A DNA stretch of 64,000 nt, taken from Coptis chinensis (taxonomy: Eukaryota > Streptophyta > Magnoliopsida > Ranunculales > Ranunculaceae). The translations under genes and the position numbers were made by a program. The stretch covers positions 23,843,501-23,907,500 of the forward strand of contig CM027382.1 in the NCBI GenBank assembly GCA_015680905.1, written 5' to 3'. Shown here piece by piece: positions 10,765 through 41,263 of the stretch. The notes beneath the pieces were generated by a model. It was not told the origin of the DNA. It saw only the letters and a program-made list of their open reading frames with translations, and searched no databases. Each line of letters starts with the position of its first letter. The stretch's first letter is position 1.

Positions 10765-10818
10765 ATGGGTGGAACTGTGGAAGTGATGTTGTTGCAGTCG
10801 TTGCCGCACGCTCCTAAG
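10765..10818 (+). pseudogene. MULE-A zinc-knuckle/GRF-like gene, exon 1
   Basis: The ATG at 10765 opens MGGTVEVMLLQSLPHAPK, then a GTAAAG donor. The MULE-B copy has MGGSEMVVLSPPK followed by GTAAGT, so the start, the ending Pro-Lys and the intron position in phase 0 are shared. The LINE at 10854 lies 35 bases into the intron, so exon 2 is now about 6.5 kb away at 17350. See the exon 2 entry for the domain description. Confidence 0.7.
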
Positions 10819-10853: not shown

Positions 10854-11205
10854 ACACTTAAACTTATGGCCAACAATGGCTTCCTCCTTTGCTGAGTGAG
10901 AAAACACCCTCTTAGTGAGACGTCCTCTTCTAGAGAACATCCATCCCTCTCCCTATAGCCTCTCCCTTTCTACACACAATCTCTACCTCTACCTTATCTC
11001 TCTCAACCACCCTATCTCTCTCAACCTTATTTCTCTTATGCATATCATCTATATACCATCGATTACTTCAAGTCATCTGTTCCACTCCTCCATATCCCGT
11101 ATTCTGTGCTTTTAATACTAATTTTTCCAGTTGTACCTTTTAGTTTTCTTCTACATTTTTTCATTTTCTCTCTTCCTTGCAGGTTATACCTGGTGATTGG
11201 TGGGG

Positions 11206-16100: not shown

Positions 16101-17252
16101 ACTATAGATGTTAGGGATGAGATTTTACAAACTCATATTTTCTCACAAAATTTGGATCAGAATATCATTTAGACTTTAGAAAAGAATGGTATTTTCACTG
16201 TCAAATCGACATATAGTTGGTTTATAAGTCAATCTAAGGTTGGTAGGACTCTTAGGTCTTTATCAGTTGCTAAAAATACTTGGTGTTATATTTGGAAACT
16301 TCATATCCCACATTGAGTCAAAATGTTCTTGTGGAAAATGCTTAACGGCATTTTGCCAACTAGGAAAGTGTTGTTTGATCGGTATGTTTGTCATGTGTCT
16401 ACCTGTCCTCGTTGTCACTATACGACTGAAAGCATTGAGCATGCCCTTTTCAGTTGTGTTCATTTAGATAAAATTTGGTTTGCCTCACCCCTTGCTATGC
16501 AATTTCATTCATGGAATCAGCAGTTTAGTGCAGATGATGTGATCACTAAAGTTATCTCTCAATGTCCCTCCAAGGATAGTACTATTTTTAACCTATCTAT
16601 CTTAGCATCTACTGCCTATGGTAGATAGAAATTCTTTGGTTTTTTATCCTCGTCATAAAGTTGTTAACCCATATCAAGTGCTGGAACAAGCACGAAGGTG
16701 TATTATTCCTGCTCATTCTCCAGTGTTTTTGAAATACCTGATACCTGACTCTCATCTTCCTGACCTTTTTATGCTAGCATGTGACAGCAGTTTCGACCTT
16801 ATTTCCTCACAGGCTGCTGTAGGCTACACTCTAAATAAATGGGCTTTTGACTTATGTTCTGCAGGAAGCAGGCATGTCTCAGCAAGCTCAGCATAAGAGG
16901 TAGAGCTGCAAGCAGTAAAAGTCAGATTGGAACAAGCTCGTCAGCTAAGTGTTAGCAAGGTGGTGGTTTGTTCAGATAATAAAGGCATTGTTCAAGAGCT
17001 CAATGGAGTTTTTCGGCTACAGTGTCTTGGTGTTGTGAGGATCTTTTGCATGAGATACTTAATCTCAAAGCTAGTTTTAGTTTCTGCAAAATTGTCTTTT
17101 GCCCGAGGGAGTTGATCAGACATGCCCATCTCATGGCAGCAGCAGCAACCCTTCATAATCCTCTTGTTTATAATAACTAAGTTCCTATGCCTGTGATACT
17201 TGATTTTTCTGAAGTCCAGTCACGTCTGTATGAACTATTTGCTATCTGTTAA
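13125..17252 (+). pseudogene. LINE ORF2: endonuclease, RT, zf-RVT, RNase H
   Basis: It starts at the ATG at 13125 (MATSIPSLKIASWNCRGSKK). IASWNCRG and IMETKA are the first motifs of an AP-type endonuclease, which continues through MIGDFNELLHP and the SDHSMI motif near 13815-13832. Reverse transcriptase follows: LGDNNTKFFHN (about 14200), LIPKIPHPNKVSLYRPI (14625-14675), AIKLDMHKAFNQLEW (from 14865), RGIRQGDHLS (about 15042) and the catalytic FVDD box at 15192-15203. A zf-RVT block with CPRC and C-terminal Cys/His lies at 16323-16500. RNase H starts at ACDSSFD near 16776 and runs to about 17150 with the conserved E in EVELQAV and a downstream D. At least eight stops or frame changes interrupt it. 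Confidence 0.88.
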
Positions 17253-17283
17253 TGAAGTTAGAAACTATTTGCTAAAAAAAAAT

Positions 17284-17349: not shown

Positions 17350-17637
17350 GATTGTCAATTGTGCTATGAAGAAAGCCACTATCCTTCAACATGTTCATAC
17401 TTTGGCATTCACTGTGATTATGCTCTGTGTTGTGGATTTATGAGAGTTGTGGTAGGTCGCAAGAATCAAGGAATTAGGCAATTCAAGTATCTCAAGTGTT
17501 CTCATTCTAGTTGTGATTTTGTGAAATGGATATACTTTGACAAAGAGGTATACCACTAAATTTGTAACATGTGCAAGGAACAATTAGAAGTTTGTGAAGA
17601 GTGTGAGTTGTGCACGTACTGGTTGTCATCTTCCTAA
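17350..17637 (+). pseudogene. MULE-A zinc-knuckle/GRF-like gene, exon 2
   Basis: The exon starts DCQLCYEESHYPSTC, an exact CX2CX4HX4C zinc knuckle. It then has CCGFMRVVVGRKNQG, LKCSHSSCDFVKWIYFDKE and, past a stop at 17557-17559, CNMCKEQLEVCEECELC. The middle part resembles a GRF-type zinc finger (Cys-Gly start, then Cys-x4-Cys with a following hydrophobic-Lys-Trp). The MULE-B copy at 23143-23439 is collinear over the whole length. Two defects are seen: the base pair that should give the AG acceptor reads AA (GCAA before GAT), and TAA replaces a codon before the last Cys cluster. With the LINE in its intron as well, this copy is dead. Function is unknown; nucleic-acid or protein binding by the zinc modules is inferred. 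Confidence 0.7.
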
Positions 17638-17974
17638 TAGTTGTGTCAAGAGTGCGTGAGACTTGTGATAATGAACGCTATGTGTAAGCTGTTGAATGCA
17701 GTGTGTGCTACTGTATGTGTAATGTGTGTGGATGTAGTGCTATCAAGTACTCTATCAACTCCATAAATGAAGTTGTATGTTTTCAAATAGTCTTTCTAAC
17801 ATAAACATTACATAACACGATGTGCATTCCCCTTAACATATCAAAACAAACATAGCACAGTAATAAGATCTTCAACACAAAAACCATAGCACTATAGTCA
17901 ATCAGAGCACTGTGATAAGATTCTTGAAAACAAAAAATAGACAAAATGACAGTCCAACAACAAGTGATGTGATC
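17638..17974. other. Spacer between the two convergent MULE-A genes
   Basis: This stretch is GT-rich (17690-17735) and then AT-rich. It corresponds in position to 23440-23770 of MULE-B, the intergenic zone where both genes end. No open frame is supported. Confidence 0.4.
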
Positions 17975-18235
17975 TCACTGGGTTTGAGTTAAAGATTCAT
18001 TGAAGCAAGGAGTAGATGAATTCCATGGTGTACTTGGTGTCTGAACATGACCACCACCATCATCCTCTCCACCAAACTAGTAATGAAACCCCCTTGATCC
18101 TCTTCTTCCACTTGGTGGTCTTCTTCAGTTCTTCCCCAAGGTGTTCTCCCTCCCCTGTTGCTTGCTCCTCCACTTGGTGCTCTCCCTCCTCTTCTAGCTC
18201 TTGGCGCTTGTTGGCCAACATCATGTATAACACCC
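17975..18235 (-). pseudogene. MULE-A transposase, C-terminal tail only
   Basis: Read on the minus strand, from about 18235: QAPRARRGGRAPSGGASNRG, GRTPWGRTEE, and after a frame change HVQTPSTPWNSSTPCFNESL followed by TQTQ and a TGA at 17977-17975. The MULE-B transposase ends DVPRARRGGRAGRAGG ... PPSTPGQSTPCIVLSESLTQ, SQPQ. The match in sequence, order and orientation shows that MULE-A and MULE-B are relatives. The catalytic core is absent; similarity stops at about 18235 shortly before the Harbinger element. The Arg/Gly-rich tail probably binds nucleic acid or gives nuclear localisation. Confidence 0.7.
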
Positions 18236-18526
18236 CATTTTTTTTATTGTTATTTATTAGTTCCTTTTTACTATAAAAAGAATAAGTAAGAGCATCTCTG
18301 GGTGGTGGTAGCATACTCTTCATATTTAAAGAAAAAGTTTGAAGAAGTTGGTCGCAAATTTTGACCAACTCTAGGTGGTCACAAATTGCGCCCGCAAAAT
18401 TTATTGTAGACCCCACCTTGTGCGATATTATCGCGTGATATGCTTAATAAAATGTCACGCGACAGTCGGACTTTTGTCATTTCACAACTTTTTTTTCAAC
18501 TTAGTTTATCTAGTTCTAGCAAAAAA

Positions 18527-20753
18527 ATGAATTCCGACGACGAATACGTCTATAATAACCAAACACGATGGAGTGGTGACGGTGAGGAAGAAGAAAACAG
18601 TGGTAATAGTGCATATGTTTGGAACAATCCCATTGGTGATCTAGATGATGAACCAACCACTTCTGGAGCTGGAAATCAGGGAGCTGAGGCTGACGATCCA
18701 TTACTGCTTCAGTATCAGCAAGTCGATTTTGAATTTCCTGCTGAGGCTATTGATTTCAACCATCTTAGGCCGGTGTCTATGAGGTTTCATGATAGGCATG
18801 TCTCAAGAGTTGTTCTTAAATTTTAATTTCATATATTAGTAGTAGTAGTAGTTAATTTTAGTAGTTAAATACGTACATTTTTATTTTTATTTTATTAATT
18901 TTAGTTTCATTTTGCGTACATCAGAGATGTGTTATGTATCAGGTTCGGTGCACTCCACGTGCGCTTAAGACGTGGTGGGATGATATTAAAAAAGTCGGTG
19001 CACTTGACCATATTAGAGATGCAATTTTAACGACTCCCTTTGGTCATCTAGTTGACATACCTTACAATAAGACTGACATTCAGGGAGTTATTAATGGTTT
19101 AGTTGAGAGATGGTGGGATAGTACACATACTTTTCACTTCCCTCAGGGAGAGTTGGGCTTCACTCCATTAGATTTTTGCATGATATCTGGTTTGAGTATA
19201 GGATTAGGTAATCCATTGAGATGTAGCATTGAATTCCAGAGTTGTGCCCAAATGATGACTTTCTTCCCTTGTCTGACCGAGGAGTCATATGACAGTGCTG
19301 GTGTTAGGATTTCTGGTATCAAGGCTGTATACATTACACCGTTGACTACTGATTCAGGGTTGTAGTTTTTGATAAATTATTTGTCACTTGATTCTGATGT
19401 CGGTCAAGCACATGTTGATGAGTATGTAAGAGCTTTTTGTATATATTTGATGGGCGTCTTCTTTTTTCCTTCTGGCCATTCCACGATTAACTTGGGGTAT
19501 CTAGCCAACTTTGAGCACTTGCATGAGTTGGGCGGTATTGATTTTGGTAGAGCCATATACTGTCATTTGTTGTGTTGTTTAGATAGGGCTTCTCGGCAAA
19601 CTGGTGTTGTTAGTAATCCCCAGATGGAGGGTTTGTCATTCTCTTAGAGGTATGGTTTTATGAGTATTTCCGTGCTGCAAATCCTATCCTCACAGAGTAT
19701 ACCGATGAGAGGCCTAGGCTCAGGGCTTGGCACGGACCTCATCGAGCTCGTCTAACCAGTGAGATCAGTCATAACATAACTTCTGTCCGAACCCAGATCG
19801 AGCTTAGCACACAGGCTTCTATTGTTTGAAGGCCTTGGCAGACATATGTGCACCTCGGCGTGAATGACTGTAGATACGTATTGTTCATTTCTCATAGGAG
19901 GATGGTATGCACTTGTGGGAGTGATATGGAGTGGTATTTAGGGGATAGATGTTACAGACAGCTCACACCATACTTTGGTATCCCCCCTGATCTGCCTACC
20001 CATGTATCAGAGGCTAAGGACATGACCATACAGCAAGTCATCGAGATTAACGTGCATTGGAGTTGGGTACATGCTTCTGACCTAGTTACATTGCAAACTT
20101 ATGAGCAATACTACCGTTATTGGTTTAGGGTATCTATTGGTCATTTTCTTCCAGATGTGGGTCGTACATGCAACATTCATACGGTTAGCAATTTGGGTGT
20201 CAGACGTGAATTCCAAATTGGCCAGGCATCACAACCGACGTTTCAGCATGGACCTGTACACACATTTGTTCCAGCGCCAGATCCCCCTCAGTCAGAGTGG
20301 CCTTGGGTTTTCAGTTTGAGTGATCTGAGTGGCCAGACGATTTACCAGCCCATTTCTTCTATTGATGACACTCGCGTCGTACAATTAGAGCCTGACCTTG
20401 GACATCTACCTCTGGTAATTATTTTTATTGGTTTTGGTTTATTATTTTTGTTTATTATGAAAATGTCATAAATTATTAATGAATAATTATTTCAGGATGA
20501 GCTACGCATGAGATATGAGACATCCCTTCATGTAAATAATGGCTTACGCTCCTCGGTATTCGCCTATAGTGTTGAGAGAGAGAGACTTCTTTCCCAGGCT
20601 CATGTGGATTATGACGATTTGCAATGCCAGGTTGATGAGTTACAGACTCAGATTCAGCGCACAAGGGTGAGTTCATCACATGGACAGACGGAGAGTTCAG
20701 CAGAAGGACAGTCGAGGAGGAGTTCACGGCAGAGGAGGCGATGTAGGAAGTGA
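18527..20753 (+). pseudogene. Plant mobile domain (MAIN/MAIL1-like) gene, decayed
   Basis: The likely start is the ATG at 18527 (MNSDDEYVYNNQTRWSGDGE), an acidic N-terminus followed by FNHLRPVSMRFHDRHVSR. After an AT-rich intron, the plant mobile domain reads LKTWWDDIKKVGALDHIRDA, ERWWDSTHTFHFPQGELGFT, PLDFCMISGLSIGLGNPL and later FPSGHSTINLGYLANFEHL. A second block (19848-20400) has MEWYLGDRCYRQLTPYFGIP. The last exon (about 20494-20753) is a coiled coil ending in Arg-rich sequence. Plant mobile domain proteins such as MAIN and MAIL1 act with PP7-type phosphatases in genome stability and silencing, and the domain also travels in transposons. At least two stops (for example after DSGL at 19363-19365) and one frame change (about 19645) make this copy non-functional. 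Confidence 0.7.
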
Positions 20754-21115
20754 GGACTTGATTATTTATGTTGTGTATTATTATTATGTTGTGTGATTTA
20801 GAATTGTTCATTTGATCATTTTGATAAGTTCTAATTTACTTCCTTTGATTTAGCAAATGAATTGCAATTTTTATTAATAGAACGACAACTAATACATGAT
20901 TGCAAAAACATAAAATAAAAATAAATAAATAAAAGACAACTATTACATATCACCCTTATTACATACTACTAGAGTTACTATAGTTATCAAGCCAATCATC
21001 ATTTTCTTCATCATTGGCTTCTTCGTCGTTGGAAGCTTAATTTGTACTACTTGATCCAGCTTTTTTTTTTTTTATATTTAGCTACAATTGCATCTTGTTG
21101 TAGCTCTAAAACCCT
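20754..21115. other. Spacer between convergent Harbinger genes
   Basis: This is AT-rich intergenic sequence where the two gene remains end tail to tail. No DDE nuclease fragment is visible on either strand. Confidence 0.5.
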
Positions 21116-22054
21116 TCACAAACGAGGATTGACTTTGTCGAGTGACATTGCCAACAATCTAGTCTCATTTTCCTCCTCTCTAACACGGAGTTTTTCTTGC
21201 TTCAAAAATAATTTTTTTTGTGTCTTCTCTTGCTTCGATTTCATCATACTTTGAAATTGCCCATTTAGAATCTCTTCTTTATTTCTTCGAATTTCTTTAA
21301 AAGCTTCAAGAAATTCATCCATATTTTTAACAGTGGATGCAACATTACCCTCGATAGCAGAAGCAACTTTCTTGTTCTTTTCAATTTCTTTGCTCTGCTT
21401 CCTACCGACCGACCTCTCCAAAAAACCTTCAATACTGCTAGGATCGTATTCCGAGTACAGTGAAGGTGAAGGGGTAGAGTAAGGCGTTGAAGGGGTTGGG
21501 GGTTGAGGGTGAAGAATCGAAACCTTCAACATCTCCAGATCTTGCTTTCTTCTTTGGTCTAGGAGCAAGCGTTTCGTTGCGTAACTGAGTTATTTACCAC
21601 TTTAATGTATTTTTGACTAGATTATTATAACAAATTTTCCATATCCATGGTTTCCCAGTAGTAGCCGCATAAGTTGCTGCCGCGTCTGAAAGCTACGTTT
21701 ATTAAAAAAAAAATCAATATCAAGTAGTATATAAAACGAAGTATAAACGAATCTTACAATGTCTTCACGTCCCCACCTGCTTGGAGGTTGTTCTTCAAGC
21801 TTTCTTAGTATAGCATTATATTTGTTGAAGAACGGTAAAATAATCGCCCAACGTTGTGAGACTCCCTTCCACTTACGATTGTGGTCAAAACCTTGAATTT
21901 GATTCATCCTAGCCATAATTCGTTCCCAATAAACTTGTCCCGATTGCTCATTCCCAATTATAGAACCTTCTCCAATCTCAATCCACGCTCTAGTAAGAGC
22001 AATATTTTCTTCATTTGTCCAACTTTGACCCCTTCCTTGTTTTGGTTGTGACAT
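21116..22054 (-). pseudogene. Harbinger ORF1: Myb/SANT-like protein
   Basis: Exon 1 (21758-22054) begins MSQPKQGRGQSWTNEENIAL, then TRAWIEIGEGSIIGNEQSGQ and VYWERIMARMN: the trihelix/Myb-like domain of Harbinger ORF1 relatives. It ends at a GTAAG donor. Exon 2 starts at 21692 after ACGTAG and reads LSDAAATYAATTGKPW, then a Pro/Ser-rich linker and, in a shifted frame, the NAM-associated C-terminus (FLERSVGRKQSKEIEKNKK, MDEFLEAFKEIRRNKEEIL) and a coiled coil ending at 21116. In active elements this protein binds the TIRs and works with the DDE nuclease in the nucleus. A TAA after LKW and a frame change in the linker (about 21480-21600) break this copy. Confidence 0.75.
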
Positions 22055-22438
22055 TGAGAGTGTTGTGTGTGAAATGGTTGAGAGTGTTGTGTGTGAAAAT
22101 GAAGAAGGAGATGAGTGTAGATATATGGATGTAGAAATTCGGCCGTTTTTTGCCCTTTTTTTCCCGTTGGAGCACGCACCAGTAGTTGTGGCACGCGACA
22201 GTAGTAGTGGCGCGCAGTAGTAGTGGTCAAAGTAAAAAAAAAGGGGGGCGACATTTGAAATGGCGCGCGATATTACTATTGTCACTCCGCATCCGCATCC
22301 AAATTGGCAAATTTGCGAACAAGCAGGTGATGCGACCGTGAATGAGACCACCTAGAAATGGAATTCCGAGATATTCCGAACTTTTTCTTCAAATATAAAG
22401 AAAAAGGCAGGTTATACTACCACCTAGAGATGCTCTAA

Positions 22439-22576: not shown

Positions 22577-22585
22577 AAAAATAAA
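22577..22585 (+). repeat. MULE-B target-site duplication, left copy
   Basis: AAAAATAAA here is repeated at 36553-36561 directly outside the other TIR; 9 bp is the size typical for Mutator-like elements. Confidence 0.75.
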
Positions 22586-22680
22586 GTAGGGTATTTAGCT
22601 TTTGGGCCACATTATAAATGGGTAATATGCAGTTGGTCACCAATTGTTCGTTTATTAGCTATTGGGCCAAAATTGACAGT
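22586..22680 (+). repeat. MULE-B left TIR
   Basis: The arm starts GTAGGGTATTTAGCTTTTGG and ends AAAATTGACAGT; it is the inverted match of 36460-36552. As in other MULEs the TIR probably contains the promoter for the inward-facing gene, here the zinc-knuckle gene whose ATG is 277 bp further in. Confidence 0.85.
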
Positions 22681-22956
22681 TAACTGCGTTAACTTTGCGT
22701 TGACCATGACTGAACTGTTGGTCTGAAAAACTGAGTTTTTGTAATACCTAAAACACCCCTCGCATGTGTCTATGATGTGAAATTTGAAATCAAACAAAAA
22801 AATGGTAAAATTAAGATTTGATCCAACGGCCCCAATCAATATAGTCGTTAGAAGTTGTCTTCTTCCACTCCCTATATATTTCGACCATGGGAGCCTACCT
22901 TCAAACATACACTTAAAAAATACACTTAAAATCCTTTCAAACATACACTTAAAAAA

Positions 22957-23439
22957 ATGGGTGGAAGTGAAATGGTGGTTCTCTCTCCTCCAAAGGTAAG
23001 TTTCTCACCTTGTGACCTGTTCGACCTTTCTCTTTAATGGCAGTTCAGTTGGACCAAACGCAAAATAAACAATTTTAATTAGGACTAATCCCTAATGTGG
23101 TAGATCATTGTTGCCACTAATCCCTAATATGTGTTTTTTCAGGTCTGCCAATTTTGCAAGGAAGAAGGGCATCATGCCTCAACATGTACTTACATAGGTG
23201 TTCACTGCCCTAAAGCTTGGTGTTGTGGGTTTATGTGTGTGATTTTACAGTATAACAAGGCTAGTACCCTAGAAACCAAGTTACTTAAATGCTCATTCGA
23301 GGCTTGCAGTATTGTGCAAGAGATCTACTCCAACAAAGAGGTGCTTCAAAGTTGCCAATTATGTAAAGAAGAATTTCCTCTCTGCAAGAGCTGTCACTTG
23401 TGCCCACAATGTCATTTACCTACTAGTACTTGTGAGTGA
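22957..23439 (+). CDS. MULE-B small zinc-knuckle/GRF-like protein (two exons, intact)
   Basis: Exon 1 is 22957-22995 (MGGSEMVVLSPPK), donor GTAAGT; the intron of 147 bp ends TTTTTTCAG; exon 2 is 23143-23439. The protein has 111 residues with no stop. Residues 15-28 are a CX2CX4HX4C zinc knuckle (CQFCKEEGHHASTC). Then come C-P-K-A-W-C-C-G-F-M and LLKCSFEACSIVQEIY, which together resemble a diverged GRF finger. The end is a Cys ladder (CQLCKEEFPLCKSCHLC, CHLPTSTC). Nothing else in the protein looks catalytic, and there is no signal peptide. The same two-exon gene exists in MULE-A with intron position conserved. It is the first gene after the left TIR and converges with the transposase. A helper or regulator of transposition is an inference from position only. 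It could also be a captured plant zinc-finger gene. Confidence 0.65.
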
Positions 23440-23770
23440 GTGAGTGAGGGGGGAGTGAGTGTGTACTCAGTGCAACATGAATAAACATGATTTTCTAACA
23501 AAAATAAAGCGAGTTAAACCTGTATTGATAATTGATCATTTGAACTTCCATAATTTAGTCTGCATAGGTGAACTTCCATAATTTAGTCTGCAAAAGTGAA
23601 CTTCCATAACTTCCATAATCGATCATTCTGCAAAAGTGAACTTCCATAAAGCATACAAAATAACAAAAAATATGTGATGCCCATAAATAGCCACGAAAGC
23701 AGCATTGCCAATTTTAACAGAGTACCTCAAATAAATAGAGTGTCTCAACTAAGCAACATGTTGGCCTACA

Positions 23771-26700
23771 CTACTGAGGTTGGGATTGAGTAAGAGACTC
23801 ACTTAACACAATGCAAGGTGTAGATTGTCCTGGTGTCGAGGGTGGTTGTGAATCTTCACCCAACCACCAGCCCAAGCGTCTACCACCTCCTCTACCTGTA
23901 CCACTTCTTGTTCCATATCTCCTAACATTTGCAGCTTCAGCTCTACCAGTTCTTCCACCTTTCCTTACTTCAGGGACTTGCAGATTCTCAGCTTCAGGTT
24001 CAGCTTCAGGGACATCAATCACTGGGTGCAAATTCACATGTTGGCCTGCACCTCTCCTACCACCAGCTCTACCAGCTCTTCCACCTCTCCTTGCTCTAGG
24101 GACATCATTTTGTAGATTCTGAACTTCAGCTTCAGGGAAATCAACCACTAGCTGCACATTCACATTATTATCCCCACCTCTTCTTCTACCACCACCTCTA
24201 GTTCTTGTAGGGCTATCATGCCCACCTTCTGCCACCACCTCTTCTGCCCGTTCACCTTCATTGTTCTTCGCATTCCCAACTTCAAGTTTAATGTCTTCAG
24301 GTTCATTGGCTTCATCTGTTTTTCTTGATTTCTTTGATGGTTGATCTTTCCCTAGTGGACATGTCCTCTTATTGTGCCCTGGTTCAAGACATTTCTTACA
24401 CTTTCTCTTACTTGTTGCCTTCTCTTCATCATCACCTCTTATCCTCTGTTTTTTAGGTCTACCTGGATGTCTCTCGAGTGGTGGAGGTTATACAACATCT
24501 TCTGGTTTAACCTGTCATATAACAATACATAAGAATCCCAATGGAGAATTGGAAATATGATTGATAAGACAAATCCAAAAGTACCTTGCCCCAATCCTCT
24601 TCATTGTCAAATGGAAATATATAACCACCATAAGTTGCTCTGAATGCATTCACATGATAAAATGGACTGCAATACCTGTTAATATTGAATATCTTACTAA
24701 ATAGCAACTAAATAACATTTGAATGGTCCTACTAAATAGCAACTAAAAATATACCTTGCCCAACTTTCTTTTTTTGGCCTGAATGGTCTGATCACAGCTA
24801 TAGCATGCACACATGGAATCCCAGTCATTTGCCAAACTATACAAGCACACTCTTGTTTAACCAAATCCACAACAAATATTTTTTCACTTTTTATGTTGAT
24901 GGCACAGTATCCAGTTTGTGAGACTCTTGAAACCTTATACCTGGTGTACTTCTTCTCAAGTCTTTCAATCACATCTCTAACAGCTAGTATTAACTCATTA
25001 TCTGCCATCTCACATGCAAGCTCTCTTCTCTAATGCAACAAGCCCATAACAGCCAAGTTGTATTTGTCCACAAATTGAAGCAAGGGTCTGTCCCTAATTT
25101 TTAGGATCCAACTGTGAAATGACTCACTAAAATTGTTTGTTATAGCATCACATTTTGATGTCAAATCAAAGTGTGATCTAACCCAACAATTTAAGGATTC
25201 TCTTTCTAACCACTTCTTTGCATCTGGCTCCTCCTCCTCCAACTGATCCATAAATGTTACATGCTCAGGTACTTTGTATGCCTTTGTTGCACCCCAACTT
25301 AGACTTTGCAAGTAATCACCCTTGAATTATGACTTGAAATTCTTATACATATGTCTAAAACAAAATCTGTGAACAATAAAGGAAATAACCCATTCTTATA
25401 CATGCAATCTGTAATAGGATAACAACTATAATATGAATGTAAGTTTGGTTGTACCTGTGATTTGCAAAAGGAAAGTTGAAATCAACAGCATCTATAAGCC
25501 CTTTCTGCCTATCTGATATGAATGTAAGTTTCTCTGGGTATTTGCTCAAATGAGGTTTCAGATTCTTCAAGAAATCATTCCATGTACACTTATCTTCACC
25601 TCTGCATATATATATACCAAGAGGAAACAGCCCATTCATAGCATCTAATTCAATGGCACTTAATACACAACCCCCATACTTACCTTTCAGAAAGCATCCA
25701 TCTAGACCAATTATTGGTCTACATCCTTGAACAAATCCATCAAGTGCAATAAACTCACCATCTTGATCCCTTTACCACTTTGCCAATGATCCTTCATTCC
25801 TCTTAAGTATTTGTGCTTTCAGTTATACTATCTTGTGGTAACTAGTTTCATAGTTACCATTGATCCTCTCAAGTACTCTAACTTTAGCCTGCCAAGCAGT
25901 ATAATAAGAAATATCAACCCCAAACTTATCCAACACTTCCAAAATTAGGTATATGGGTGTCATCTGTGGATGAGATCTTAGAAACCCTTCCAACTTATCA
26001 GCTACCCATCCACATGTTGCTTGTGCATTCTTATTTTTTCCATCGGCCTCACAACTGTGAGTCTCCACATAGTTCCTCAACTTGAAAGTGTGTTTGTCAC
26101 TCATCACAGTGCAATACACACTCCATCCATATTCTGGGTCCTTACACTTCAAGTGGATTCTGGCCTTGTTATTTCTAACTTGAACATAACTAAACTTCTG
26201 ATATATTGCTAGGTTCTTCATAAACTCCCTACACTCTTTAAATGTTCTCCATTCCATTTTAGGCAGCAGTTGCAATTTCACTTCTGTGGTTCCATTTCCT
26301 TCTATTCTCTCATGTTCTTCATCTGCATATAAATTCTTTGGTAACTTCACAAAAGCACTGATGTCATCATCCTCATCATTATTATCCTCATCCAAATCAG
26401 GTTGCTCATCCACCAAATCAGGTTCTTCACCTTCACTGTCCCTGTCTATAGGGTTAGGCACAAAATCAACATCTTCCTCATCAGAAGAAGCTTCACTAAC
26501 ATAAGCAGTACTTAGCTTAATACTAGGACCATACTCATCTCCCACTTGTATAAACATATCAACCTCATCATCCTCATTGACTCCACCATCACAATCTTCC
26601 ACTTCATTGTCAACCAAGTCTTCAAATGTCACACTACTATCAATCACAGTTGTCCAGTCCTTTAGAACATCTTCTGCAGTGAGTTGAGGTTCCACCATAC

Positions 26701-27406
26701 CTTCAGCTTCAAAATAGAGTTTTTTGGCTTTCATTGGTGTTGTAGGTGTAGGATGACGTCTTGGTGACTTTCTTAGCTGAGCAATGGTCTGATTTGGAGC
26801 TTTTGGTGTTGTTGGGGTTGTGGAAGGAACATGGTTAAGCCTAGGTGATTTTCTAACTTCAGACACAACCACCCTTTGTTTTTTTGTTTTTGGTGTTGTT
26901 GGGACTGTTGAGTTAAGGTTAAGCCTAGGTGATTTTCTCACTTCATGGTTGCTTTGGTTTGTTGCTTTTGGTGTTGATAGGATTTTGGGCTGTTTGTTGG
27001 ATGTTGGGGGCTTCAAGGGCTTATTGACACTGGGCTGGGCTTGACTTGGTTGTAGGCTATCTTCAAAACTTGATGTGGTTACAAACAAATGATACCTCTT
27101 ATCCCTTTCAGGTTTAATCAAATCCCACATTTTCAACATATCCTTATCATTATTGAAGTAAGTCAGATGTCCCCTAGAAATGAATTTGACACATGACACT
27201 GGTTTGTCATCCCCAAACTACTTATGTATCTCCTTGAACAAATCAAGATAACACATCTTTTCACCATTTACCTCATAGTCACACCTCTCCACACCCCTAT
27301 ACATAGAGTAATTAACCTTCCCGGGTGTAAAAGGCATCCAAAAACCATCATAGTGCAACACAAACACCCTATCACCTTTCAGAGTTCCCATAACATATAC
27401 AACCAC
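23771..27406 (-). pseudogene. MULE-B transposase (MuDR/mudrA-like), broken
   Basis: The start is at or near 27406 (VYVMGTLKGDRVFVLHYDGF), a PB1-like N-terminal domain. A long acidic and Lys/Pro-rich linker with repeated RKSPRL/R motifs (about 26680-26980) follows, then the MuDR N-terminal zinc-cluster region (26280-25900). The DDE core has GLDGCFLKG (about 25695) and TFISDRQKGLIDA (about 25530). A SWIM finger CACIVWQMTGIPCVHA lies at about 24855-24808, a CCHC knuckle CKKCLEPGHNKRTC at about 24400-24360, and an Arg/Gly-rich tail with a twofold internal repeat ends at 23771. The intact enzyme would bind the TIRs and cut and paste the element. Stops occur, for example, at 27218-27220 and in the DDE part, and at least one stretch looks like a retained intron (about 25310-25450). 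It is expressed convergently to the zinc-knuckle gene. Confidence 0.85.
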
Positions 27407-27674
27407 ACTATTGGAACATAAAATGAAAATAAACTATATAAATCAACAATGGAATAAACTTCATAACATTTATAAACTTCATAACATTCATAAACTTCAA
27501 AACATTTATAATCCATAATAAAGTACATTACAATCCATAATAAAACATAGGGCTAAAACATAAACATAAAGACCCGGCCCTAAACATAAAGGCCTTAAAC
27601 ATAACAAGCAAAAGCATGACACCTTACAGCCATTGTACCAAACATAACACCATCACATTGAAACAAGAATAACA
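27407..27674. other. Spacer in MULE-B upstream of the transposase
   Basis: This AT-rich sequence has imperfect repeats of CTTCATAACATT-like words (27468-27515). It separates the transposase start from the Lys/Gly-rich ORF on the same strand. Confidence 0.4.
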
Positions 27675-28199
27675 TCACTTCCTCTTATTCTTCAGTGCAG
27701 TCTGCATAGCTTTATACTCCTGGGGACACATCAAACCCTGCACAACCACTCTAGGTTGTGCTTGACTTCCCCCTCCAACAGGTTGTGCTTGACTTGAACT
27801 TCCCTCACCCTTAACCTTAACCTGAGCCTCATCCTCACCCTTAGCCTCACCCTCCCCAACAACATTTGGATTACTTATTGCATCAAGCCAATCCAGATAC
27901 TCCAAGTCATGCTCAGATAGATCCTGGTCATCATCAGAATCAAATGGAGGTAGTCCTACATCAACCCTGTCTGCTTCTTTCTTGTCCCTATATTCAAATA
28001 TGTGATCATGGACTTCTTCACGAGTTACATCATCACCATGTTCATCAACATAAGCTCTAACAGCCCTAACCTCATCCTTTGCCCAATTGTTATACCCAAA
28101 TCTACAAACAGACATTAAATGGTCTGGATACTCCTCACCTCTCTTTTGTTTTGGACCCTTGCCCTTGCCCTTTATACCCTTGCCTTTACTTTTTCCCAT
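27675..28199 (-). CDS. Lys/Gly-rich ORF of MULE-B (174 aa), unrecognised
   Basis: The first good ATG is at 28199, giving a basic N-terminus MGKSKGKGIKGKGKGPKQKR, a middle part with YPDHLMSVCRFGYNNWAKDE and VRAVRAYVDEHGDDVTREEV, an acidic DSDDDQDLSEHDLEYLDWLD stretch, a Gly/Ser/Gln-rich linker and a basic end (TALKNKRK). There is no stop within it. It lies on the transposase strand, between the right TIR and the transposase. It could be a separate third protein of the element or a former 5' exon region; no donor that would join it to the transposase is obvious. I do not recognise the family. The charge layout suggests a nuclear or nucleic-acid-associated protein. Confidence 0.5.
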   Translation of the reverse strand: MGKSKGKGIKGKGKGPKQKRGEEYPDHLMSVCRFGYNNWAKDEVRAVRAYVDEHGDDVTREEVHDHIFEYRDKKEADRVDVGLPPFDSDDDQDLSEHDLEYLDWLDAISNPNVVGEGEAKGEDEAQVKVKGEGSSSQAQPVGGGSQAQPRVVVQGLMCPQEYKAMQTALKNKRK

Positions 28200-28693
28200 T
28201 TGATAGGTCTGTGAGACAACAACCAACAAGTGAACATTGTGTTACATTTTTTAAACATTACCCAAAAGGTGCTACATTTTTTAAACAGTAAAATAATGTG
28301 GCAACAAACTACTATATACCTCTAATTGATCAATATAAAATATATTAAAAAAATGTACCTATAGTATTCCAGATTACTTAAAAAGCCCAAATTTTTTGTA
28401 TTAAAAATTAGGGTTTGGGACCATTACAGTATTTAAGAATTAGGGCTTGGGACCACAACATAATAAACAATTAGGGTTTAGGTCAATTTTTTAATTGATA
28501 ATTAGGGTTTGGTCCAGAAAGACACCCACATACTTCTTTAAACAAACAAACATTCAAACCATGCAAAACAGTATAAACAATTGAACAAACGTAACTAAAT
28601 TGAAAAAGGTTTAGTTTTTACTTACAAACTAACTTTCTTAAGCTTGAATGCACAGATCAGATCTACAAGTCCAGTCTATCTTCTCCAAAGCTA
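28200..28693. other. MULE-B internal non-coding segment with telo-box-like repeats
   Basis: Three copies of ATTAGGGTTT/ATTAGGGCTT(G/A)GGACC-type words occur at about 28408, 28440 and 28470, with a fourth at about 28501. Read on the minus strand they give AAACCCTAAT boxes upstream of the Lys/Gly-rich ORF and may act in its promoter. Confidence 0.4.
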
Positions 28694-28702
28694 CCACATT
28701 TA
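28694..28702 (+). repeat. MULE-C target-site duplication, left copy
   Basis: CCACATTTA is repeated exactly at 36110-36118 outside the opposite TIR; 9 bp fits a Mutator-like insertion. Confidence 0.9.
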
Positions 28703-29180
28703 GGCAAATTGGCATATTTCACCCTCGAACTTGTCAAGTTTTACCACTTACCCCCCTAAAGTTCAGTTTAGGCAATTTTAACCCTGTACTTGTAAAACGT
28801 ATCCACCTTCATATTTCCGGTTCATTTTCGGCACCTGAAGAGTGGCGTGGATTAATTTTTTTCTTACGTGGAATTTCTAATTTTGAGATGTATCAAATTC
28901 TTGCACACTCAGCACACTCTGGTCAAGTCAAGTCAACAAAGACATGAGAAAATCACGTGACCTACAACAAAACCACTTTCGCTACACAAAAAAAAATTAT
29001 TCCCTCTCAGATTTTCTATCCCCAAATCCCCAAATACCTAATTTGAAACCCTAATTCACAAATTTTCAAATTGAAACCATGGAAAATCTAAATTGAAACC
29101 CTAGTTCACTGTTGTTGATCAAACTCATCATTTCTCGCTCAAACTCTTCATTGTTGTTTGCTCAAATTTTAGATGTCTTT
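28703..29180 (+). repeat. MULE-C left TIR (about 480 bp)
   Basis: It matches 36109-36062 and 34584-34141 in inverse orientation with few differences. The similarity fades after AGATGTCT, at an ATG (29173) that has an exact counterpart on the other side where it is the start codon of the GRF gene. The last 200 bp contain repeated AAACCCTAAT/AAACCCTAGT telo-box words, likely promoter elements. Confidence 0.85.
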
Positions 29181-29327
29181 TTGTTGAATCACGACTGAAG
29201 TAAGTAAATGTTTGATTATATGATATGTCCATAGTAATTTGCGTTATATAAATGTTAATTGTGCATCTTCTGATGTTAATTTCATTACTTAAATGAAGTG
29301 GATCTTTTTTTATCTTAAGCGTACATC

Positions 29328-32300
29328 ATGGTGGGACTTTTGTGCGTAGCCCCAATTTGCAGTATGATGGGGGAGAAATGAATTGTTCTTATGAAGATAT
29401 GAATGCTAAAATGACATACCTTTATCTCAGAAATATGGTAAAGGATTTTGGTTATCCTCCTAGTAGTATAGCTGAAATTTAATTTAACACTCCTGGGGTG
29501 GAATTAGAAAATAGGTTAAGGCCACTTAGGACTGATAGTGATGTAAGCTCAATGGTAAAAGAGGCTGATGTATTTGGGAACATAGAAGTTTATGTTATAC
29601 ACAAGCAATCTGATGATAGTGATGCTAGTGATGATAGTGCTTCTCAGAGTGATGCTGAAAGTGAAGTTGGTAGTATAGACAATGTGAGTGATGAAGAGTT
29701 ACTTGAGGTTAGGCATATGAGGGTTGAAATGAAGAAGTGTAAGCAGATCATAGATGAAAATGGTGAATGGGCTAGTCAAACTGCTGCAGATGACATAAAT
29801 GGTGAAGGGGCTAGTCAAACTGCTGCAGATGACATAAATGGTGAAGGGACTAGTGCTCCTCCTGATGTGGTTCCTGATGTGGCATTGTCTGAAGAAACAG
29901 AGCACACTGGGTATGACAGTGAGTATGGAGAATATGGAGATTACAGCCCATCAGAGAGTGATTAAGAAGATGAAGCAGTAGAACAAGAGGTTTGTAGAAA
30001 GAAAAAGAAGAGTTAGCCCACATTTAATACAAAGACAAATATGTTTGCAATTGAACCTGCTTTGGGTATGAGGTTTACAAGTAAATATGAGTTCAAGGAC
30101 TGTCTAAGAGATTATGGAGTGGCAAATGGTTACCCAATTAAGTTTATAAAGAATGAATCAAACAGGGTAACTGCTATTTGTGGTGAAGGATGTAAATGGA
30201 GATGTCATGCCAGTCCAATGCAAGTTGACTGTAGCTGGCAAATTAAATCACTAAATGATTTGCATGAATGTAATAGGGATTTCAATGCCAAATTTTGCAA
30301 TGCTAGATGGCTTTCTAAGAAGTACAAGACTCAAATCCTTGCCAACCCTAGGTGGAAGCTAGAGGACTTTGTAGCTTCTGTTTTGCATACATATGCAAGC
30401 AATGTTTCATTGAATCAATGTTCCAGAGCTAAGAAGTTTGCATTGGGGGAGAGGGATTTAGTTATGATAGATCACTATGCCAAGGTTTATGATTATGCTC
30501 ATGAGTTGCTGACAAGAAATCCAGGTAGTACTGTTAGAGTGCAGGGTGAAAGTGTTACAAATGAGCTTAATTCACCAAAATATTTTAGAAGGTTTTATGT
30601 ATGCCTAGATGCTCTAAAAAAGGGATGGGTGCATTGTAGACCTGTGATAGGGTTGGATGGTTGTTTTTTGAAGGGTTATATAAAGGGTGAATTGTTGTTG
30701 ATACCGTGGGTAGAGATGGGAATAATCAAATGTATCCAATTGCATGAGCTGTAGTTGAGGGTAAAACAAAGATTCTTGGTTACGGTTTGTGAATTTGTTG
30801 GTTCATGACATTGGTGTGGCAGATGGGTTTGGGTGGACTATTATATCGCATAAAACGTAAGGGGTTGGTTGATGCAAAGGTACACTTTTGCCATTAGCGT
30901 AACACAGTGTTGTGCAAGGCATGTATATGCCAATTTTAGGAAGAGATTTAATGGTTCTATGTTAAAAGGACTTTTTTGGATGACTGCTAGAAGTACCACC
31001 ATTCCAGTTTATGAGAGGAACATGAAAAGGATTGAATTAGTGTCACCGATGCACAGAAAGTACTTGAGGACCAAACAAAATCCAGAACAGTGGTGTAAAG
31101 CTTTTCAGTTGGATACATCTTCTTGTGATGCAGTTGAGAACAATATGAAGGAGTGCTTTAATAGTTGTATTATTAGAGCAAGGCTCAAGCCCTTAATTCA
31201 TATGTTGGAGGACATCAGGATTTATATAGTAAAATGGGATGCAAAAAAAGGGAAGCAATGCAGAAGTGGACTGATGTGTTTGCTCCAAGAATTAGGAAAA
31301 CCATTGAAGAAAACAAGATGGCAAGTAGAGACTGGTTGTGCATATACCATGGGGCTGAAGATTTTCAGGTTAGTAATGAGAATGATGGATATTCAGTTGA
31401 CCTAAGAAAGAGGATTTGCAGCTGCAGAAAGTGGATTCTTACTGGGATTCCATGTTGTCATGCAATTTCTGCCATCTTTAAAGCTACCAAGAGGGTGGAC
31501 AATTTTGTGCAGACATGGTATAAGGTTGAGACAATTAAGCATGCTTATGAAGAACATATAAAACCTTTGAATGGAGAAGTACAATGGGTGAAGACCAAAT
31601 GTATAAAAGTGTTGCCTCCAAAGGCAAAGAGAATGCCTGGTAGACCCAAAAGAAATAGGAGGAAGGACCCATATGAGCCACCAAAGAAGGGACCACAAAT
31701 TTCAAGGAGAGGGAAACATATGAGGTGCTCTAACTGTAAGGAGATGGGGAATAACAAGAAAGGATGCAAAGAACCTATTGCACCAACTCAAAGGCAACCT
31801 AAATTGACTGTAAGTGGTTATTTTATTATTTCTATTTTTATTTTGGATATTTACATTATTTACTTATATTGTTGTTTGGGTTATTTTGGATATTTATATC
31901 TACTCGAAAGTGAAAAGAAAAAACAAAGAGGGGAACACAAGTGCACCACCACAAAAGAGATCAAAGAAGAAACAGGTATCAATAATGCCATTCTTATCTT
32001 TAAACATATGATGTTTAATTTCTTTAGTTTTGGGTCAATAATGCTTTTTTTGTAGGCCCCAAGTATTGCAGCTCCAAGTACTACATCTCCAAGTGCAACA
32101 GCTCCACCTTCCAGTGCAACAGCTCCACCTTCAAGTGCCCCCACAAGTACAGCAACTCCACCTCCAAGTGCCCCCACAAGTACAGCAGCTCCACCTCCAA
32201 GTACCCCCACAAGTACAGCAGCTCCAAGTAATACACCTCCAAGTACAACAACTCCACCTCAAAGTAAAACAAATCCTAAAAGCAGATCCAAAAATGATAT

Positions 32301-33159
32301 GGTATTGCTCTATTTCTAGTAGTATCATGTACTTCCTTTATTTGTCTCTGAGTACACTTCTTCTTCTCTTTTACAACTTCTTAGTACTTCCTTTACAACT
32401 CCTTTATTTGTCTCTGCTTCACTGTGTACTACCATATATAGCCTAACTTGCTATGTGTAGAAAATTAAAGTTTGCTAGAAATCATAAATTTATAACTTGT
32501 TTAAGAGAAAGCAGAGACTTAAAAAGTAAAGCGGCTTGGAGCTTTTAAAAATGAAAGCTGATAACACTACATTTATAAGAGGGAGACTTAAAAGTATAAG
32601 AGAATGTGGTATGGTCTTGCTTTGTTTATTGGTAAATATGGTATTGCTCTGTTTATTGGGTTTGTTTTTAATTTGTATACTTCATACATATACACACATG
32701 TCATATTTGTAGGTCCCAACTATGACAGAACCATCAAATCCAGTTGTTGCTTCACAATCTACATCATCTACACCCAGAGGTAAACAACCCAAAGGCAAAT
32801 CTGTGATTATTGCTACAAGTCTTGCCAAGAATACAAGGTCATCAGCTGCTCTTACTGAGACACAAGCATCAGCTGCACCCAAAGGTAAACAACCCAAAGG
32901 CAAAGCTGTGATTTTGGATACAAGTCCAGCCAAGACTGCACCTAAAGCCCCTAAAGCCTCTGCCAGAAAAACATCAGTTGCACCTGCAAGGACAGAAGCA
33001 TTAGCTGCACCTAAAGCTCCTACTAGAAAAGCTGCGTCAACTCCACCCATGATTCTTGATTCAGGTCCATCCAAGAATACAAGATCAACAAAGACTTTGG
33101 GTATTAAGCCTCAGGGTACGGGCTATAAGACCAAGACCAAGACCAATTGGAGGATATAA
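29328..33159 (+). pseudogene. MULE-C transposase (MuDR/mudrA-like), broken
   Basis: After a TTATCTTAAG acceptor-like end, the PB1-like domain reads VHHGGTFVRSPNLQYDGGEM and MTYLYLRNMVKDFGYPPSSI. An acidic linker (29498-29965) has a direct repeat of ASQTAADDINGEG. The MuDR zinc-cluster region is 30041-30400 (CGEGCKWRCHASP), and the first catalytic block is VIGLDGCFLKG (about 30645). The middle of the DDE fold seems to be missing or scrambled (30750-30870). CARHVYANFRKRF (about 30915) and a SWIM finger CSCRKWILTGIPCCHA (31419-31466) follow, then a CCHC knuckle CSNCKEMGNNKKGCK. The C-terminal part is Pro/Ala/Thr-rich repeats (32056-32280) and GKQPKGK repeats to 33159, with probable introns at about 31810-32055 and 32300-32712. 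Several stops and frame changes are present. Confidence 0.82.
32056..32280 (+). repeat. Pro/Ala/Ser/Thr-coding minisatellite
   Basis: Tandem imperfect units of about 15-30 bp (CCAAGTGCCCCCACAAGTACAGCAGC-like, here shortened in description) encode A-P-P-S-x-x-P-T-S-T repeats of the transposase tail. It is low-complexity, disordered protein sequence and can expand or contract by slippage. Confidence 0.7.
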
Positions 33160-33800
33160 CACCTCTATTTAATTTGGTTATGTCAGTAGGCATTGTTAGT
33201 ATTGTCAGTAGGAATTGTCAGTATTTTGGTTCTGTATTTTGGAACAAAGTTGTTTGATGTTGATATGTTTAATGTTGCTCTGTATTTTGGAACAAAGCTA
33301 TTTTATATTTCTCTGTTTAAGTTATGTTGCTCTGTTGGAACAATTGTCAGTATTTTGGTTATGTATTATGTTGCTCTATTGCTCTGTGCCTTTAAGTTAT
33401 GTTTCTCTGTTGCTTTGTTGCTCTGTGCCTTTAAGTTATGTTGCTCTGGAAAAGATTACCATTCAATTTGCTCAATTCTAAGTTTATAATGTGGAATGTG
33501 ATGTCTATCTCATTTGAACAGCAGGAGGCACAAATTTGGTTTGTTTTTTCATTCAGAACAAATTGATAAATAGACACTAATGCTCTCATCATCTATAGCT
33601 TGTTTCATTCAAAACAAACAGACACTACCGACTCTAATGCTCTCTACTCTGTAATGGTTCACATCCACATATCATCTAAAAACTCAACGAGTAAGGTTTG
33701 CATAAAACATACTTCCAAAGACATCTCAAAAATTACTTCAACCAGTCAATACATTCAAACTCAACCAGTCAATACATTCAATCTTTAAAGTTTATACAAT
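33160..33800. other. Convergent intergenic zone of MULE-C
   Basis: Degenerate repeats of GTTGCTCTGT and GTCAGTATTTTGGTT-like words lie at 33190-33450, and CAACCAGTCAATACATTCAA is tandemly repeated near 33738-33780. Both genes of the element end here. No gene is supported. Confidence 0.5.
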
Positions 33801-34145
33801 TCACTTCAACCAGGACAACAACAAGTAAGCAAAAACAAACACTATAATCCATTTCTTCTTCTCGTTCTTCTTCTTCAGTTCTGCAATTTCAACTCTCAAT
33901 TCTGCAATTTCAGCTCTCAGTTCTGCAATAATCACTTCATGATCATTCCCTGCCGGTGGATCAATCCAGACAAAGAATAAACACCTTTCTGGGTGTGGAA
34001 ACTTTCTACACCCAACAAATCTTCTTTCAGGGTTCGTTGGCGTCTGAGAAATCCATAACTTGGGTTCAAGTCCACAATAGCAAACGGTTTAGAATCGGGA
34101 GTTGCCTCGAGAGTTCACAGATGTGATAGAATTAGACATAGACAT
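33801..34145 (-). pseudogene. MULE-C small GRF-type zinc-finger gene (one stop)
   Basis: From the ATG at 34145 the frame reads MSMSNSITSVNSRGNSRF, a TAA, then TVCYCGLEPKLWISQTPTNP, ERRFVGCRKFPHPERCLFFV and WIDPP, ending with TGA at 33801-33803. C-x-C-G, W-x-S-x-T-x-x-N-P-x-R-R-F-x-x-C and C-x-F-F-x-W-x-D are the hallmarks of a GRF-type zinc finger (zf-GRF), a single-stranded nucleic-acid-binding fold. A heptad-like coiled coil (IIAELRAEIAELRVEIAELK) and a hydrophobic end WIIVFVFAYLLLSWL (likely membrane tail) follow. Small plant GRF proteins of about 100-130 residues have this same layout. It starts at the inner border of the right TIR and converges with the transposase. The only defect seen is the stop at codon 19. 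Confidence 0.75.
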
Positions 34146-34584
34146 CTAGAATTTGAGTAGAAATGATAAGTTTGAGCAGCAACAATGAAGAGTTTGAGCA
34201 GAAATGATGAGTTTGAGCAACAACAGTGAACTAGGGTTTCAATTTAGATTTTCCATGGTTTCAATTTGAAAATTTGTGAATTAGGGTTTCAAATTAGGTA
34301 TTTGGGGATTTGGGGATAGAAAATACGAGATGGAATAATTTTTTATGCGCGCGTGAGTGGTTTTGTTGGTAGGTCACGTCATTTTCTCATGTCTTTGTTG
34401 ACTTGACTTGACCAGAGTGTGCTGAGTGTGCAAGAATTTGATACATCTCAAAATTACAAATTCTACGTAAGAAAAAAAATTAATCCACGTCACTCTTCAG
34501 GTGCCAGAAATGAACCGGAAATATGAAGGTGGATACGTTTTACAAGTACAGGGTTAAAATTGCCTAAACTGAACTTTAGGGGGG
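34141..34584 (-). repeat. MULE-C right TIR, inner part
   Basis: This is the inverted match of 28755-29180, including the GTCAAGTCAAGTCAACAAAG and AAACCCTAAT stretches. The outer 48 bp of the same TIR lie at 36062-36109, beyond the solo LTR. Confidence 0.85.
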
Positions 34585-36056
34585 TGCTAAAAGATAAATT
34601 TGAATAGTCTACCTACGAAATGAACGATGAACTCAAAACGTAAGTAAACTAAAACTATCTACGTGTCTATTTTTATCAAAGTTTCTACTCTCAATTCTAT
34701 CGAAATAGAGTGGAATAACAAATTCGTTCCACTCCTAGTGCTCTAGCATGGAATGTTTTCTAATCTAATTAGTCGGTCTTAAGTCTAATGAGAGCTTTAC
34801 GAAGGGTGTTATACTACGATACAATATGAAATTGATTATGTTGAATTTAAACTACGAATGCTATGGAAATATGATTGTTTTTGAATCTAGATAAAGGATT
34901 AGAGGGGAATTGAATCCACCTCGAATCCAACTTAATAACCTAGCATAGATTCTTGTATCTCGATTCTTACGTTCTTACGGCAAGAATTTCGAGTTCTAAT
35001 CCCTAGTGTTCATGGCATTTCTACCAAATACTAACTAGCATGTGAGGTTGTCCACCCATTCTCATGGCGAATCACGACCTTCTAGAGTGGAATAGATTCG
35101 ACAATGTTTCTACACTATACCACTAAGTTTTCATCAAAGCTTCATCAACCCCTCTAATGGAGGTTTTAGCCTTGAGTCATCAAACCATCATTTCCCATTG
35201 AATTATAACTACTCATTATATTAAAATTCTAACTTAACTAAATTAACTAACAATGTTTCAATCTACTTAAACTACGAAATGATAATCAACAAGAATTAAA
35301 ACTAGATCTATAAATTGAGATGACAAAAATCGAAATTAACAAAATAACTATTTTATTTATCTAATCAATCAAGAACAATGATTCAAAGACTTAATCTAAA
35401 ACAAGAATTGAAAATGGAACTAAAACTTAATTAAAATACTGGAAACTAGATCTAGAATTATCTATATTGTTTAGGTCTAACTAGCTACCATTAACAAAGA
35501 GCTAAGTTTTGGTTTTTATACTTTCAGATCCAAAAATCGTGCATGGGCTTGGAGCCATGTTTTGGGCCAGAGAATCAGGCCCAAAACCCAATTCTTTCAG
35601 TCCAAAAAGGCCTCTTCAGCTACAGTTGGCTTCAACAGACTTTTTGTCCACTTCTGCTCCTCTAATTGGGTCAAGTCTTGGACCATTGGAAATCTCTTTC
35701 CGAGCCGGTCGTTTTGACATAAGGTAGGCCCCATTCCGAGGTCTGAGTCCAAAGATACGGCCTTCCGAAGTTCTGCTGACTTGTGTGTTGTTTCTGCTCG
35801 TGTCGACTTTTCAGCTTTTGACCGGGCTTTAGGAAGGCTTTGTCTTCTTGAATCTTGGCATTTAATCACGGAACTACTTAGTAACCGACCTTTGCTCCTT
35901 TATCTCACTAAAGTGGCACATTTCTGCACATAATGGACTTTGAAACCCGAAATGCATAAAACACGTAATCAGTGTTAACTCTTAATTATTACTCACATAA
36001 TTGGTCTAAAAGTATGACTGTTACAGGGTTAAAACTACAGTTTTGGGCTCTTATCA
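34585..36056 (-). mobile_element. Solo LTR (1472 bp) inside the MULE-C TIR
   Basis: The segment starts TG and ends CA and is flanked by GGGGG on both sides (34580-34584 and 36057-36061), a 5-bp target duplication. It interrupts the TIR at a G run that is continuous in the opposite TIR. Read on the minus strand it begins TGATAAGAGCCCAAAACTG, a beginning seen in plant Ty3/gypsy LTRs. The orientation and family are inference from that. There is no internal region, so it is a solo LTR left by recombination between two LTRs. It is the youngest insertion in the MULE-B stack. Confidence 0.85.
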
Positions 36057-36109
36057 GGGGGTAAGTGGTAAAACTTGACAAGTTCGAGGGTGAAATATGC
36101 CAATTTGCC

Positions 36110-36118
36110 CCACATTTA
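36110..36118 (+). repeat. MULE-C target-site duplication, right copy
   Basis: CCACATTTA is identical to 28694-28702. Confidence 0.9.
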
Positions 36119-36459
36119 TTCCTAGCGTTTGAAAATGTGTTAAGTTGGTTCTCAGCGTTTGAAAACAGGTTGTCTGAAACAGGTTTGCTACCCTCACACA
36201 CAAATAGGTTGTCTGAAAGAATGATGTAAGCAAGAGTGTTGTCTGAAAGAAGTGAGTGTTTTTGGGCGGTTAATTAGTGTTTTTCCCACTAATAGGATAT
36301 GTAGTGAGAGATTAGGATGCGTGTCACAAATAAACGGTCAGGATAAAACGTTATGGTGGCTGTTGATTTGAAAATAACTTTGATCTTAGCCGTTTATTTC
36401 AATCACGTGCAATACACGTGCAAGGCTAAATGTGCCATTTTAGAAAATATGGACGGATC
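36119..36459. other. MULE-B right internal segment
   Basis: This is the part of MULE-B between the MULE-C insertion and the right TIR. It has short repeats (CAGCGTTTGAAAA twice, GGTTGTCTGAAA three times at about 36167-36250) and no coding signal. It was the promoter-side region of the transposase before MULE-C inserted. Confidence 0.5.
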
Positions 36460-36552
36460 ACTGTCAATTTTTGCCCAATAGCTAATAAACGAACAATTGG
36501 TGACCAACTGCATATTACCCATTTATAATGTGGGCCAAAAGCTAAATACCCC
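36460..36552 (-). repeat. MULE-B right TIR
   Basis: Inverted match of 22586-22680, differing inside at one base (GGGCAAAA against GGGCCAAA). The 9-bp duplication AAAAATAAA follows at 36553-36561. Confidence 0.85.
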
Positions 36553-36561
36553 AAAAATAAA

Positions 36562-40331: not shown

Positions 40332-40614
40332 TTAATTTTGAGGGTTCGTGGTGATGACTGCATGGATCGCACGTCCAATGATGATATAACATTCGATTTG
40401 GCGGACGTGTTGTCTCTAAAACATCCAGACACCCCCACTAAGCCCACACGATTGAATGATGTACACGAGTGAACCCTAATAGTCTAGCCAAATTCTGTGC
40501 AGACTCTTCGCTTACATCCACGTGGAGAATGAGAATGTCAAGTGCATACACATACTTCATGAAATCCTACTACAGTTCCAGACTAATCTCTTTTGTTATG
40601 TTCATTGCTGACAG

Positions 40615-41249: not shown

Positions 41250-41263
41250 CTTGATTGGCACCA

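Follow-up and report, generated by a model that had tools for sequence, protein, structure and literature searches.

Three MULEs and their convergent genes

The 64-kb window analyzed here, that is, the whole stretch of DNA at its full length, is AT-rich (36% GC) and full of transposons. The element types present, Mutator and plant mobile domain, suggest a plant host. Among the transposons are three MULEs, here called A, B and C, each with a small gene that contains Cys codons and converges on the transposase gene; A and B represent one lineage (Table 1). All three display the MuDR-type layout, in which two genes read inward from opposite ends. When fragments of the B and C transposases and the small proteins served as queries for a protein search of the window, no MULE beyond these three was recovered, although a distant MULE could escape such a search. 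MULEs are defined by a TSD of 8–11 bp together with TIRs (PMC6446971; this and the other articles cited are used to the extent of their available excerpts).

Table 1. Positions of the MULEs and their genes in the window
Feature	Position	Strand	Description
MULE-A, left TIR remnant	10398–10475	+	related to MULE-B TIR, local score 54
MULE-A, small gene, exon 1	10765–10818	+	18 codons
MULE-A, small gene, exon 2	17350–17659	+	one in-frame stop, one frameshift
MULE-A, 3' end of transposase gene	17975–18121	-	convergent, 315 bp from small gene
MULE-B, whole insertion including nested MULE-C	22586–36552		TIR pair and TSD
MULE-B, small gene, exon 1	22957–22995	+	13 codons, begins MGG
MULE-B, small gene, intron	22996–23142	+	147 bp, GTAAGT ... 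TTTTTTCAG
MULE-B, small gene, exon 2	23143–23439	+	CX2CX4HX4C knuckle, GRF-like middle, Cys ladder
MULE-B, transposase gene	23771–27391	-	four or more exons (assigned by eye), Pfam domains, 6 premature stops
MULE-B, third open frame	27675–28199	-	174 codons, upstream of transposase, on transposase strand
MULE-C, nested in MULE-B	28703–36109		TIRs and TSD; transposase on +, frames broken
MULE-C, small gene	33801–34145	-	probable GRF zinc finger, convergent with C transposase

MULE-B combines MURA-type transposase domains with paired TIRs (22589-22680 and 36551-36460; 90 of 92 bases identical) and a perfect 9-bp TSD, AAAAATAAA, at 22577-22585 and 36553-36561. The initial annotation had ended the element at 28693, a position that is ruled out by the partner of the left TIR at 36460-36551; MULE-C is nested in between, and the sequence proper to MULE-B comprises 22586-28702 and 36119-36552. 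In its transposase, the Pfam families MULE (E = 1.2e-10) and SWIM (E = 4.3e-8) were both detected above their curated cutoffs, with DBD_Tnp_Mut (E = 3.7e-5, 23.7 bits) falling just under its cutoff of 25. The gene ends at a stop codon at 23773-23771 and, as had been observed earlier, contains premature stops, six among about 1120 codons of four exons set by eye. When the transposase core was compared with the viral_contigs set, five stretches were picked up, none of which was confirmed.

Reading toward the transposase from the left TIR is the small gene of MULE-B, the two exons of which join into 111 codons and a stop, exactly as first annotated. Both splice sites conform to the consensus (donor AAG/GTAAGT, acceptor TTTTTTCAG/G), a TATATA lies at 22873, 84 bp 5' of the ATG, and AATAAA occurs at 23480 and 23503, 3' of the stop. 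The ends of the two convergent genes are separated by 331 bp, in agreement with the earlier figure of about 330 bp. The CX2CX4HX4C signature noted at the outset, a CCHC knuckle pattern, can be read in the sequences of both the MULE-B protein and its MULE-A counterpart. Pfam returned no family up to E = 10, and hence no knuckle match, for the MULE-B protein, and likewise none for exon 2 of MULE-A as far as its stop; NCBIfam returned none for the MULE-A protein, the MULE-B protein or the 174-codon frame, and a PDB sequence search with exon 2 of MULE-B gave no match. AlphaFold models of the two small proteins, built from two-row alignments, are poor (mean pLDDT 40.9 and 51.0). The small protein yielded 27 pattern stretches in viral_contigs and 22 in genome_contigs, a set with no plant genome, and none in either was confirmed as a relative. 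The description of the MULE-B protein as GRF-like accordingly comes down to a resemblance of motifs, and one that is clearer in MULE-A, where the middle of the protein reads CCG followed by N.G.R.F....C....C.F..W, in the manner of the GRF domain (PF06839). Relative to the GRF consensus, the Cys spacing of the A/B proteins differs and the MULE-B protein is without several of the consensus residues.

The initial annotation had also presented the small gene as the only gene of MULE-B without a stop. The 174-codon frame, which encodes a charged protein without a Pfam match and is perhaps a third gene of the element, is likewise uninterrupted. At the stop rate of the transposase, the expectation is 0.60 stops for the 111 codons of the small gene and 0.93 for the 174 codons of the other frame, so that the open state of both is unremarkable. 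The probability of a stop-free 111-codon frame at this rate is 0.55 (computed with 1117 transposase codons, and the same to two figures at about 1120), for which reason the absence of a stop from the small gene is uninformative, and we reject the argument that it is intact and therefore selected. The same calculation bears on the idea that the small gene encodes a trans-acting repressor of its own or other copies, which as an intact small gene outlives a broken transposase. The contrast in MULE-B between an open small gene and a transposase with six stops would fit such a repressor, but with P = 0.55 that contrast carries no weight and, moreover, the copy of the small gene in MULE-A is itself broken; we regard this explanation as distinctly improbable.

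In MULE-C, too, transposase domains are accompanied by a pair of TIRs and a 9-bp TSD without mismatches, CCACATTTA, at 28694-28702 and 36110-36118. Its TIRs differ from those of A and B; their outer parts (28703-28755 and 36109-36057) are 100% identical and the remainder (28750-29169 and 34585-34168) is 94.55% identical. The right TIR is interrupted at 34585-36056 by a probable solo LTR of 1472 bp, which has TG...CA termini and a duplication of GGGGG. The transposase runs on the forward strand in broken frames from 29483 to about 33159, the latter limit being read from an open frame without a domain match, and its DBD_Tnp_Mut and SWIM domains are both above the curated cutoffs. The longest match between the B and C transposases has 30% identity over 107 residues, and two shorter ones have 53% over 34 and 55% over 29 residues. 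The small gene of MULE-C has a frame of 114 positions with a single in-frame TAA (34091-34089). Its product matches PF06839 over 42 residues at E = 2.2e-4, with a score of 21.7 bits that falls short of the curated cutoff (25.9), and is a probable GRF zinc finger; a coiled coil and, beyond that, a hydrophobic tail can also be recognized by eye. NCBIfam gave two weak matches for this protein, and the PDB gave 10 weak matches, none of them a GRF finger by name, with a best E of 0.072. Between the A/B small protein and the GRF protein of MULE-C, pairwise blastp detected no meaningful similarity (best E = 4.1).

The MULE-A copy and selection on the small protein

A tblastn search of the 64-kb window with the MULE-B small protein uncovered a homologous copy at 17353-17616 (E = 2e-21), in which exon 2 is 46% identical to that of MULE-B over 69 columns. 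The first exon of this copy shares with MULE-B the MGG start and an AAG/GT donor at its end. In its intron lies what by eye is a LINE-like insert (10854-17283) with a 12-bp duplication (10842 and 17284). The TIR remnant that precedes the gene outscores every one of 248 control windows, the best of which reached 39, and all of 1000 single-base shuffles, the best of which reached 47. Similarly, the transposase tail aligns to that of MULE-B with a score of 69, which none of 384 control windows attains (maximum 38). Within the window, no further part of this transposase and no right end of the element were found, the left TIR remnant being the one terminus recovered. The convergent layout is conserved, with a gap of 315 bp in MULE-A versus 331 bp in MULE-B. 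The homologous small gene, the related TIR and the similar transposase end together identify MULE-A as a further and older member of the lineage to which MULE-B belongs.

Across 93 aligned codons, the two small proteins are identical at 45 residues, and the differences at the first, second and third codon positions number 38, 21 and 50, respectively. Exon 1 was left out of this comparison, as were the codon at which MULE-A has its in-frame stop, the residues around its frameshift and those residues of MULE-B without a partner. The resulting dN/dS (ω) is 0.21 (dN 0.43, dS 2.0), an only rough value because a dS of 2 is near saturation, and one resting on two copies, one of them broken, a pair in which the selected branch is not distinguishable. 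A ratio near 1 had been named beforehand as the outcome that would speak against an accessory gene; on this one pair ω = 1 is rejected (2ΔlnL = 18.4, p = 2e-5), and none of 200 bootstraps, which range from 0.01 to 0.42, reaches it. With equal codon frequencies ω becomes 0.26, and without six tail codons 0.23. Removal of the 14 Cys-Cys codons raises it to 0.35 (2ΔlnL = 6.0), and thus much of the selection signal comes from the Cys residues.

These values bear directly on two explanations that would deny the small gene a function in the element. The first is that it is an open frame that arose by chance and does nothing: its uninterrupted run of 98 codons has P of about 0.0009 at this base composition, which is not negligible genome-wide, but the homologous copy with its coding-type pattern of differences (38/21/50) and ω of 0.21 leaves this explanation with hardly any credibility. 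The second is that a fragment of a host gene was captured once by the common ancestor of A and B, in the style of Pack-MULEs, and has since been carried as a passive passenger. MULEs do often take up host genes (PMC6446971). Against this stand the same ω, which was obtained between two element copies, and the agreement of A and B in exon structure and convergent position. Were the two captures separate, selection could have acted in part on host copies, but the shared position would then be a coincidence. Passive capture is therefore improbable in our estimation. Instead, the ω of 0.21 across A and B points to a small gene that is borne by the elements and kept by selection, and we hold it very likely that the 111-residue protein is a selected gene of the A/B lineage. 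We therefore regard it as a probable functional helper gene for the transposon, not as junk.

Accessory genes of other MULEs and a putative insertion helper

In MuDR the two genes converge and the TSD is 9 bp. MuDR requires its second gene for insertion and many other MULEs seemingly have none, which is an old puzzle. This contrast between MuDR and other MULEs is also drawn in the literature (PMC9168764). The same source describes two oppositely transcribed genes inside the TIRs of maize MuDR, an arrangement that MULE-B shares. For insertion in maize, MURB is described as a requirement (PMC9168764; PMC6446971), and mudrB is stated to be confined to Zea (PMC3276141). The initial annotation had treated the convergent layout as a hallmark of MuDR. 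We reject this specificity, as Abermu, found in barley and several other plants, has a frame, ORFR, on the strand opposite to its mudrA-like gene (PMC9168764). Going by its description, ORFR resembles the small gene of MULE-B in being an extra frame opposite a mudrA-like gene; it is stated to be unlike MURB and has Ka/Ks values of 0.39 to 0.56 in three pairs, but, unlike the MULE-B protein, it is assigned no type of zinc finger in the excerpt available (PMC9168764). Barley Abermu and MULE-B are further alike in that a third frame shares the strand of the transposase gene, though that of MULE-B lies upstream of the transposase, whereas the Abermu text numbers ORF2 after ORF1 (PMC9168764). In some families of grapevine MULEs, ULP1-like frames are opposite to the transposase, the extra gene there being of a protease type in contrast to the zinc knuckle of MULE-B (PMC2528002).

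As to the suggestion that the gene was possibly undescribed, the layout was already known, and what is new, as far as our searches of the literature go, is the type of protein in the slot. No zinc-knuckle or GRF-like protein in the convergent slot of a MULE was found in the literature searched, from which most subscription papers are absent. More generally, the gene structure, the convergence and the knuckle motif of the initial annotation are confirmed, with the homologous copy now added to them, while the right end, the claim of a sole intact gene and the GRF-like label are not confirmed. Its reading of the gene as an accessory gene is borne out by the homologous gene with matching exons, the related TIR, the convergent position and the dN/dS below 1, but loses two of its arguments, intactness and a MuDR-specific layout.

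What would such a gene do? Binding to single-stranded nucleic acid is a property of GRF fingers as well as of CCHC knuckles. The two types of zinc motif, the selected gene and its location in the slot of the maize insertion factor lead us to suggest an insertion helper. In this view, the lineage of elements A and B has, in addition to a transposase reading from one end, a small gene reading inward from the other, the protein product of which purifying selection has kept during the activity of these elements. The protein would most likely bind nucleic acid via zinc, through a CCHC knuckle, a derived GRF-type zinc-binding region and a Cys-rich tail. It may work alongside the transposase in trans wherever the transposition intermediate is single-stranded, at its freed ends or in the 9-nt gap of the target, and thereby favor insertion, a role that is ascribed in maize to MURB and would here be filled by a different protein. 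We put the reading as a whole, namely a second gene of the A/B lineage under purifying selection that encodes a zinc- and nucleic-acid-binding insertion helper, at a probability of roughly 0.55; the helper mechanism taken by itself is offered tentatively.

The main rival to an insertion helper is an anti-silencing or regulatory factor comparable to VANC of the Arabidopsis VANDAL elements, which would bind element DNA and lift methylation or regulate promoters. Accessory genes with such a role exist among MULEs (PMC5735166; PMC6446971), and DNA binding is possible for a small Cys-rich protein. VANDAL21/Hiun, with VANA, VANB and VANC, is like MULE-B a MULE with extra genes, and has two accessory ones, VANB and VANC (PMC6446971; PMC5735166). 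On the other hand, the domains of VANC proteins, DUF1985 and DUF287 (PMC5735166), had no Pfam match among the scanned frames of MULE-B, and we consider a function of this kind unlikely.

It is conceivable, if doubtful, that separate plant MULE lineages have each placed a small zinc protein of GRF type or GRF derivation convergent with the transposase. In that case, many of the small orphan GRF or zinc-knuckle proteins annotated in plants would be transposon helpers that handle single-stranded DNA at insertion, and such proteins would fill the role of MURB outside maize. The selected zinc-knuckle gene of A and B and the probable GRF gene of a second lineage in MULE-C furnish concrete candidates for helpers and a reason to re-examine small plant zinc-finger genes near the ends of MULEs.

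Other features of the window

Between MULE-A and MULE-B, a TIR element with a TAA duplication and PIF/Harbinger-like ends occupies 18290-22435. It contains a plant mobile domain gene on the forward strand and a weak Myb/SANT-like frame on the reverse strand, and no DDE transposase was detected in the five frames scanned. Downstream of MULE-B, zf-RVT and RNase H-like domains are encoded in a forward-strand frame (38517-39635) that is probably the end of a LINE. Further on, a direct duplication of about 11 kb (40421-51345 and 53067-64000; 98.5% identity) includes a tandem array of 397-417 bp, and frames for an alpha/beta hydrolase, a P450 and a retrotransposon gag are located in its first copy or extend beyond the end of that copy.
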